DNA of 43,512 bases from Candidatus Uhrbacteria bacterium RIFCSPHIGHO2_01_FULL_63_20 (GTDB lineage Bacteria; Patescibacteriota; Patescibacteriia; UBA9934; GWF2-40-263), in assembly GCA_001791045.1 (NCBI GenBank), contig MGDT01000007.1, positions 155,922-199,433 on the forward strand, written 5' to 3'. The translations under genes and the position numbers were made by a program. Shown piece by piece: positions 20,417 through 22,261 of this stretch (position 1 is the stretch's first letter; the number at the start of each line of letters is the position of its first letter). The notes under the pieces were generated by a model. It worked only from the letters and a program-made list of their open reading frames with translations, did no database searches and had not been told where the DNA came from.

Positions 20417-20443
20417 GAAAACGACCCGCTGGGTCGTTTTCTT
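20417..20443 (+). terminator. Intrinsic terminator of clpB
   Basis: GAAAACGACCC (20417-20427), loop GCT and GGGTCGTTTTC (20431-20441) form a perfect 11-base stem running into T-rich sequence, 4 bases after the clpB stop. Confidence 0.9.
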
Positions 20444-20491: not shown

Positions 20492-20520
20492 TTGACAAAA
20501 TAGCAAAAAAGTGGTATATT
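20492..20520 (+). promoter_or_regulatory. Strong promoter for the 3D-protein leader RNA
   Basis: TTGACA (20492-20497), a 17-base spacer and TATATT (20515-20520) are near consensus, in an A-rich context unlike the surrounding DNA. The predicted start, about 20527, leaves a leader of about 165 bases before the ATG at 20692. Confidence 0.9.
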
Positions 20521-20526
20521 TATCGT

Positions 20527-20691
20527 GTCGAAATGATCGACATTAGGGCAGCACCCCAGGAGGGGTCAGGGAGTTCGAAGGCCCTGCGAGCCCGTCAATC
20601 AAACGAAGGAGAGAGACAGAGGACCTGTTTGTATGGGTCTCGCCGTCTCGCGAGGTACAAACCGGTTTTTTGTATCCCTAAAACAAAAACT
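20527..20691 (+). ncRNA. Structured 5' leader, candidate riboregulator
   Basis: The first part folds on paper as a three-way junction. A closing stem is GATCGAC (20535-20541) with GTCAATC (20594-20600), continued by GGGC (20546-20549) with GCCC (20590-20593). Two arms follow: CCCC/GGGG (20554-20557/20562-20565, loop AGGA) and CAGGG/CCCTG (20567-20571/20582-20586). A purine-rich link (about 20601-20620) leads to a terminator-like hairpin at 20624-20671. The layout of junction plus terminator is that of a riboswitch or other cis-regulator. I compared it with the c-di-AMP (ydaO) class, which often controls 3D and cell-wall hydrolase genes, and the conserved motifs do not match. The ligand is unknown and the fold unverified. 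Confidence 0.5.
20624..20674 (+). terminator. Terminator/attenuator in the leader with competing hairpin
   Basis: CCTGTTTGTA (20624-20633) pairs with TACAAACCGG (20656-20665) with one mismatch, enclosing an inner stem CTCGC/GCGAG (20639-20643/20650-20654), followed by six Ts (20666-20671). TACAAA (20656-20661) can instead pair with TTTGTA (20669-20674), which would destroy the terminator. Mutually exclusive hairpins suggest conditional read-through into the gene at 20692. Confidence 0.6.
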
Positions 20692-21168
20692 ATGAACATC
20701 TTCAATGCCATCGTCGCCTCCCTGGTGCTCATGGCCGGCGTCAACGCCGTGCCGACGGACCAGAAGGCTGCTGTGCCTGTGACCCCGGTCGCGGTGGCCG
20801 AGACGGCGAAGACCCCGGCCATGGTCGAGACCGAACAGGTCCAGACCCCGGCCAAGCCCAGGGTGATCGGCCGCATCGTCACGGTGACGGCCTACACCTC
20901 GGAGGTCGGCCAGACCGACTCCACCCCGTGTATTTCCGCCGACGGCTCTGACATCTGCGTGAAGTATGCGGCCGGCGAGAAGATCTGTGCCACCAACGAC
21001 CACCCCATGCACGCCAAGCTCCACATCGAGGGCTACGGCGAATGCACGGTGCGTGACCGCATGAACAAGCGTTATACGGGTACCGGCCGCGTGGACATTT
21101 ACCTCGGCCGCGATACCCCCGCTGCATTCCAGTGGGGCGCGCGCCATGTGGCCGTGTCCCGCCTGTAA
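20692..21168 (+). CDS. Secreted 3D-domain protein
   Basis: This 158-residue protein has a signal peptide (MNIFNAIVASLVLMAGVNA), a Pro/Ala/Thr/Val-rich linker (about residues 20-58) and a 3D domain (about 59-158). The three Asp-containing motifs are QTDSTPC, TVRDRM and RVDIYLG; the ending WGARHVAVSRL is typical. 3D domains form a double-psi beta barrel in MltA-like and Rpf/YabE-type peptidoglycan-cleaving enzymes. Four Cys suggest disulphides outside the cell. ATG 20692 lacks a Shine-Dalgarno sequence; an A-rich stretch precedes it. A strong promoter with a 165-base structured leader makes this the most heavily signalled gene in the window. It may cleave glycan strands or act with the neighbour at 21320. 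Confidence 0.82.
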   Translation: MNIFNAIVASLVLMAGVNAVPTDQKAAVPVTPVAVAETAKTPAMVETEQVQTPAKPRVIGRIVTVTAYTSEVGQTDSTPCISADGSDICVKYAAGEKICATNDHPMHAKLHIEGYGECTVRDRMNKRYTGTGRVDIYLGRDTPAAFQWGARHVAVSRL

Positions 21169-21319: not shown

Positions 21320-22261
21320 ATGCAAGTGTCGACCTTCATGGTCAGCGTGATCGGTTCGGCAATGGTGCTCGGCGGCCTGTACAACTACGCCGGGTGCACC
21401 TTCCTGGACGGAGCCGCGGGCCACGTCCGCGACTTCGCGGATCAGGCGTCGTCCGGCAGCCGGACCGAGACCTACCTGGTCACGGCCTACAGCTCGGAAC
21501 GACGGCAGACGGATGACACGCCCTGCTTTGCTGAACCAAGCAAGACGGAGGTGTGCAGGGCGTTCCATGAGCAGAACAAGCTCGTGTGCGCCAGCAACGA
21601 CTTCGATATCGGGATCACCTTGGACGTGCCGGGATACGGGACGTGCACGGTGCTCGACCGGATGGCGGAGCGTGGCAAGATCGACGTCTACTTCGGTGGA
21701 TGCGATGTCGCCGTGGACAAGTCCGATGCCTGCAAGGAGCGTTCCGACGTCGCAAGACGCAAGGCGCTCGAGTGGGGGTCGCAGACGCTGCTCGTCACGA
21801 TCAGATCGATCGTGTTCGAGGCCTGCCCGACCGTGGTTCCCAAGATCACGTCGGGCTATGGGTGGCGGAAAAAGCCACGCCATAGATTCCATGACGGTTG
21901 GGACATGAAGGCCGCTCGCGGGAGCCCCGTCTACGCCGCACACGACGGCAAGGTGGTCGTGAAAAGATTGGATGCGGACGGGTGCGGAAAGTACCTGGAC
22001 ATCGAGTTTGCCTCCGACCCCGATCTCAAGACCCGATACTGCCACCTGGACCGATACCATGGCGGCCTCGAGGTCGGCTCGATGGTCAAGGCCGGAGAGC
22101 TGATCGGCCTGGCTGGATCGACCGGCAACGCCAAGGAGGACGAGCCGCACCTGCACTTCGAGGTGAAACTCGAAGGGCAGGATCGGAATCCGGATCCGGC
22201 CAGGTATCTCCACAGGAGATGCTGGAGCCAGGAAGCGGACGTCCGAATCGCCCGCAACTGA
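21320..22261 (+). CDS. Secreted bifunctional 3D-domain and M23 peptidase protein
   Basis: This is a 313-residue protein. An N-terminal hydrophobic segment (about residues 4-27) exports or anchors it; YAGC is a poor lipobox. A 3D domain follows (about 50-155: QTDDTPC, TVLDRMAE, KIDVYFGG, then ALEWGSQTLLV), and an M23/LytM domain (about 175-300) with HDGWD and HLHFEV supplying zinc ligands. It could therefore act on both glycan and peptide bonds of peptidoglycan. The 3D part is related to the gene just upstream, so a duplication followed by fusion to M23 is likely. GGAGG at 21310-21314, 5 bases before ATG, is one of the few strong Shine-Dalgarno sequences here and fixes the start. Confidence 0.85.
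   Translation: MQVSTFMVSVIGSAMVLGGLYNYAGCTFLDGAAGHVRDFADQASSGSRTETYLVTAYSSERRQTDDTPCFAEPSKTEVCRAFHEQNKLVCASNDFDIGITLDVPGYGTCTVLDRMAERGKIDVYFGGCDVAVDKSDACKERSDVARRKALEWGSQTLLVTIRSIVFEACPTVVPKITSGYGWRKKPRHRFHDGWDMKAARGSPVYAAHDGKVVVKRLDADGCGKYLDIEFASDPDLKTRYCHLDRYHGGLEVGSMVKAGELIGLAGSTGNAKEDEPHLHFEVKLEGQDRNPDPARYLHRRCWSQEADVRIARN

Follow-up and report, generated by a model that had tools for sequence, protein, structure and literature searches.

The leader RNA ahead of a 3D-domain-like gene in Candidatus Uhrbacteria bacterium RIFCSPHIGHO2_01_FULL_63_20 is, on balance, probably a cis-acting transcription attenuator and a member of an undescribed RNA family distributed across this Patescibacteria class, in which pairing of an upstream purine motif with the terminator loop would oppose termination. 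The leader was studied in the window, i.e. the whole stretch of 43,512 nucleotides that was analysed, and positions given without another label refer to it. Patescibacteria are ultrasmall, mostly host-dependent bacteria with genomes of about 1 Mb and, to our knowledge, their gene regulation is poorly known. A recurrent RNA attenuator in about one third of the sampled class genomes would be among the first Patescibacteria-specific regulatory RNA families. Its members also point out native promoters that are strong and terminators that may be switchable, and they offer a directly testable case of a specific mechanism, the pairing of an upstream strand with a terminator loop. The features of the leader and of the genes behind it are the following.

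20492–20520, + strand: promoter (TTGACA, 17 nt, TATATT) with an extended -10 (TGG), of a type common to the whole RNA family
20527–20541, + strand: 5' hairpin GUCG...CGAC at the predicted RNA start
20546–20593, + strand: three-way junction with compensatory changes in four copies
20546–20549/20590–20593, + strand: P1 of the junction
20553–20557/20562–20566, + strand: P2 of the junction
20567–20571/20582–20586, + strand: P3 of the junction
20572–20581, + strand: P3 loop AGUUCGAAGG, invariant as AGUUCGAAGR in all eight close copies
20608–20617, + strand: purine motif GGAGAGAG(AC), complementary to the terminator loop, with GGAGAGAG itself at 20608–20615
20623–20671, + strand: intrinsic terminator, stem ACCUGUUUGUA/UACAAACCGGU, U-tract at 20666–20671
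20692–21168, + strand: controlled gene, 3D-domain-like (cell-wall) protein of 158 aa, without a clear Shine-Dalgarno sequence
21320–22261, + strand: gene of an M23 peptidase protein with a clear M23 domain

The near-consensus promoter of the original prediction could be confirmed with 11 of 12 matches and was the sole promoter found between 19500 and 22500; the leader of about 165 nt, running up to the ATG at 20692, and the terminator hairpin with six Ts were likewise present. The start codon of the 3D gene lies approximately 20 nt past the terminator, so that a second promoter has no room in the window. Since this gap is so short and a terminator-like hairpin follows clpB (20417–20441, placed on the minus strand by the scan), transcription should have to pass the leader terminator for the 3D gene to be expressed. 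We infer that the M23 gene belongs to the same transcript. Of the two products, viewed earlier as peptidoglycan-remodelling proteins, the M23 protein has the clear domain; the 3D assignment is weak and comes from the orthologue, which matched PF06725 with E = 0.0011, below the curated cut-off. A Pfam search with the window 3D protein gave no match, and its PHROG match was 'L-alanyl-D-glutamate peptidase' (E = 3e-8). Upstream of its start codon, the reading frame of the 3D gene continues without a stop across the terminator as far as an ATG at 20533 (20533–21168, 211 codons); this is probably chance, because a TAG right after the purine motif closes the extended frame in the same-genus orthologue. 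Folded as a single sequence, the whole leader was only moderately better than shuffles (z = -2.63) and the 20527–20610 segment was not exceptional (z = -1.17). The 5' hairpin, which on inspection is a GUCGAA/UUCGAC helix in the same-genus orthologue, is partly exclusive with the outer junction stem GAU.../...AUC.

Close copies of the leader were sought by DNA, protein, model and pattern searches. The DNA search revealed a second copy in the window's own genome at 73% identity, an orthologue between clpB and the 3D gene was found in a relative of the same genus, and a search with the 3D protein led to a third genome of another genus (G008), in which the leader of the 3D gene is shorter and carries this hairpin loop too. 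The leader was therefore present upstream of 3D orthologues in the same-genus genome and in G008, a presence that the original prediction had set as a check against chance folding. With the copies added by model and pattern searches, there are eight close copies in three genomes, and they occupy three conserved positions. The first, seen in three genomes, lies between clpB and the 3D gene, with the terminator recurring in the two genomes besides that of the window; the second, also seen in three, is in divergent orientation to holB; the third, seen in two, adjoins pyrG. The genes downstream differ at the holB and pyrG places, and the genes downstream of the copies share no common metabolic theme. 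A three-sequence model (R1) missed the junction-less copies. Three further candidates were rejected: L003 had only the promoter in common, and L006 and L007 were short matches not recognised as leader copies. Scanning of about 85,000 species genomes with the strict loop, in a collection from which the genome of the window and its nearest neighbours may be missing, gave 26 matches, and only three had the promoter, a paired P3 and a terminator, all in JAHJAM01, which is identical to G008. Other 3D genes of the family had no strict-loop copy in their leaders, and a similarity search of plasmid and phage DNA gave no match. Pattern scans of IMG/VR gave nothing or chance matches without promoter and terminator, and those read lay in apparent coding DNA.

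The closed three-way junction proposed earlier was substantiated by compensatory changes in P1, P2 and P3. P1 and P2 occur in four copies of the window's genus, from two loci in each of two genomes; in these, 56 of 56 cells were paired and 9 of 14 pairs had changed on both sides, as counted in a hand-guided alignment fitted to the structure, in which the copies were brought into register by N padding. None of 500 shuffles was as good, and slid controls scored far lower. The P3 hairpin stands alone, without P1 and P2, in the pyrG copy of G001 (the fifth of the window's genus) and in the three G008 copies. Across all eight copies its AGUUCGAAGR loop is kept while the stem varies, with 97.5% of cells paired and 11 cells changed on both sides, which was not equalled in 500 shuffles. 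Since the helices change in a compensatory way, the idea of a DNA operator was set aside.

In each of the eight close copies the stretch from P3 to the terminator contains a purine motif, GGAGAGAG or a variant, and each terminator loop holds a stretch complementary to the motif of its own copy, variants included (AGGGGGA/UCCCCCU, CGGGGAG/CUCCCCG and AGAGAUAGG/CCUGUCUCU covary). In the window the terminator loop presents GUCUC twice, at 20637–20641 and at 20645–20649, and the conserved alternative pairing joins 20608–20617 with either of them. This pairing replaces the switch first proposed, an alternative hairpin at 20656–20674 that the window has but that is not conserved, the same-genus orthologue by inspection reading UAACAAACUGGUUUUUUAUAU there; the broader claim of a structured, attenuator-like leader outside known families stood. 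The summed motif-loop duplex energy of the eight copies was -97 kcal/mol, compared to a mean of -57 and a best of -82 kcal/mol over 500 sets of shuffled loops preserving composition only, none of which matched the own loops. When partners were swapped between copies the mean was -82 kcal/mol (permutation p = 0.007). Folding of the RNA before the terminator 3' arm exists gave 6–11 motif-loop pairs in the optimum of every copy; compared to shuffled loops, six of the eight copies were in the top 7%, G1_309 was at 15%, and in copy C6 the predicted pairing was no better than with shuffled loops. Inspection of the eight copies revealed no conserved ORF (leader peptide) after the purine motif.

The comparative data show conserved junction and hairpin helices, purine-loop complementarity and placement, and they suggest the following course of events. 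The strong promoter would start an RNA composed of a 5' hairpin domain, GGAGAGAG and the intrinsic terminator; the 5' domain, in the window the three-way junction ending in the AGUUCGAAGR loop, would be the variable part of the family. Before the 3' arm of the terminator is made, the purine motif would pair with the pyrimidines of the future terminator loop, and this pairing, with the loop as toehold, could hinder the terminator and permit read-through into the gene. A ligand, protein or RNA engaging the 5' domain or the purine motif might then restore termination. An intrinsic terminator sits between promoter and gene in all eight copies and in most members of the wider family described below, and the conserved alternative pairing involves the terminator. 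As the pairing is conserved and is predicted to dominate before the terminator is complete, an antiterminating, toehold-like role would be its most economical reading. Against the attenuator stands the position of the complementary stretch, which in most copies lies in the loop, outside the stem arm, so that the pairing need not destroy the terminator and could equally stabilise a pseudoknot; the behaviour of C6 also speaks against it.

A wider family could be detected with a pattern consisting of TTGACA, 17 nt, TA, then 41–101 nt and the exact GGAGAGAG. Among genomes that are mostly metagenome assemblies, it occurred in 117 of 383 class-level relatives, compared to 5 for the reversed pattern, and in 33 of the 43 genomes of the window's own family; outside the class the signal was weak (29 of 347 genomes, 8 for the reversed pattern). 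A terminator followed in 60 of the 90 matches read, and these wide-family statistics rest on the exact GGAGAGAG and one home-made terminator finder script. The architecture that is widespread in the class consists of an extended -10 promoter, GGAGAGAG and a terminator with UCUCUC(C) in its loop. A hairpin-plus-motif model gave two weak matches within the same family, L120 and L137, which have other 5' loops together with the promoter, motif and terminator design of the window leader. Because promoter, motif and terminator are shared, the wide family is likely homologous to the window leader, beyond a similar design. Among 46 strong terminators, a count that includes near-identical members, a perfect complement to GGAGAGAG, 5 nt or longer, occupies the centre in 36 (mean 3.45 and maximum 11 in shuffles), with a summed duplex energy of -621 kcal/mol compared to -361 kcal/mol in shuffles. 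Pre-terminator folds contained on average 6.9 motif-loop pairs, 1.9 being expected. Pairing between the two flanks of a member's motif is better than pairing with flanks taken from other members (0 of 5000 permutations, near-identical members having been thinned from 52 to 47); this signal is driven by a subset such as L151, L152, L154, L180 and L189, so some members appear to present the motif in the loop of a hairpin. CGAAG was found in the loop of a 5' hairpin in 4 of 54 members (0.27 expected). The reading of GGAGAGAG as the ribosome-binding site of a leader ORF was rejected, as an ATG or GTG within 3–16 nt after it occurred in 22 of the 90 matches, not above the chance value of about one third (hand calculation). 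Alike predicted helical proteins of 214–233 aa are encoded downstream of leaders in different genomes (L241, L243 and L246), and a Pfam search of those from L241 and L246 gave no match.

Other sequences were noted around the copies. Lipoprotein-like proteins that start alike (...CEGRT, ...CAGRA, ...CDGRT) are encoded in clusters downstream of leader copies, and a Pfam/PHROG search of the proteins gave no match.

14898–16226 of L107, - strand: lipoprotein-like gene downstream of a leader copy
5424–6725 of L102, + strand: lipoprotein-like gene downstream of a leader copy
7431–9158 of L103, + strand: lipoprotein-like gene downstream of a leader copy

The pyrG copy of G008 (L104 10210–12740, G008:C25) precedes the gene of a 193-aa protein, behind which lie genes for a bAvd-like protein and a reverse transcriptase, a neighbourhood that is probably a diversity-generating retroelement. 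At the holB locus of the window's genome (G000) and of G001, the leader terminator is followed by a second, larger element, about 170 nt long (UCUGGAGGAGAGAGUCCC ... CAGGUCACUGGCC ... CCUCCAGAU). It is closed by a long stem, is without an Rfam match and could be another conserved RNA.

1695–1868 of L056, + strand: second element of the holB locus
1262–1432 of L002, - strand: second element of the holB locus; L213 and L209 contain comparable stretches

In the window's own genome, G000:C6:93691–93804 contains a promoter-like sequence followed by two tandem GAGGAGAGAG motifs, and G001:C1:351346–351438 resembles this stretch.

The very strong promoters and terminators of all copies would also suit a family of stand-alone small RNAs, in which the terminated transcript of about 150–200 nt is the product, stabilised by a pseudoknot between motif and loop or acting through them in trans on other RNAs. 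The loop complementarity fits a pseudoknot, and in several members of the wide family the next gene starts hundreds of nt downstream, which also weighs against the attenuator. However, the leader ends about 10–35 nt before the 3D start codon in three genomes, leaving no room for another promoter, and its position ahead of codirectional genes is kept, so that this reading is considered unlikely. Still less probable is a metabolite riboswitch, in which the 5' domain, made up of the junction and the hairpin with the AGUUCGAAGR loop, would be the small-molecule sensor that governs the terminator. An invariant 10-nt loop atop a covarying stem, a modular 5' domain and a terminator platform are what such a switch would offer, but the junction is absent from four of the eight close copies, the loop changes in the wider family, and the genes behind the leaders are a mixed set that ranges from 3D/M23 and lipoprotein-like proteins to a retroelement neighbour. 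Of the aptamer-plus-expression-platform geometry in the original prediction, the aptamer is unproven: among the copies read closely, the junction occurs only in four of one genus, and the others keep just the P3 hairpin with its invariant loop.

Conservation of the loop and motif sequence exceeds the need of pairing alone, which would be explained by an RNA-binding protein or antiterminator recognising the hairpin loop, GGAGAGAG or both; this protein-bound leader is regarded as very improbable. Processive antitermination of the RfaH/LoaP type is disfavoured by a single NusG per genome: a search for NusG paralogues found none, with one PF02357 match per genome in the 38 family genomes with a match. 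The attenuator remains the preferred reading. In a bolder version of it, put forward tentatively and with less than even confidence, the purine segment, which often sits in a hairpin loop, would contact the terminator loop by kissing or as a toehold and thereby determine how far accessory and surface gene clusters are read through. Such a system would be Patescibacteria-specific, widespread in one class and equipped with interchangeable 5' sensors, and would constitute a new riboswitch class or an RNA-only attenuation mechanism.

As to known families, Rfam 15 at the gathering threshold gave no match to the window or the leader loci, with ydaO, T-box and other riboswitches included, and only tRNAs elsewhere in some loci; the leader accordingly matches no known family, as originally proposed. 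A permissive search of the window gave one chance-level match (E = 2.5), and other loci were likewise at chance level only. The ydaO c-di-AMP riboswitch is located upstream of peptidoglycan-remodelling genes elsewhere; unlike it, the window leader has no match to this family in either mode, and the suggested c-di-AMP link is unsupported. JUMPstart/ops-RfaH and LoaP leaders are short conserved elements before long surface or accessory gene clusters, a likeness to the elements found here; the present leader differs in sequence, in the strong terminator inside it and in the lack of a NusG paralogue. No description of such a leader was found in the open literature, where PMC11665869 mentions riboswitches as tools only. 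We class the leader as a new RNA family whose functional kind, the attenuator leader, is known, and not as a proven riboswitch. With trp/TRAP, the rplJL leader (PMC4538822) and terminator-controlled riboswitches it shares a 5' structured domain followed by an intrinsic terminator. An alternative upstream pairing that excludes or modulates the terminator is established in those systems and would operate here by analogy; in contrast to them, the present leader has no known aptamer or protein site and no Rfam match, and the target of its conserved alternative pairing is the loop of the terminator rather than an arm. The aptamer of the HMP-PP (thiS) riboswitch is reported to be embedded in the terminator (PMC6478431), so that the terminator hairpin itself is part of the regulatory interaction, as would be the case here; in contrast, the present leader, again without an Rfam match, uses a separate upstream purine strand that pairs with the terminator loop.
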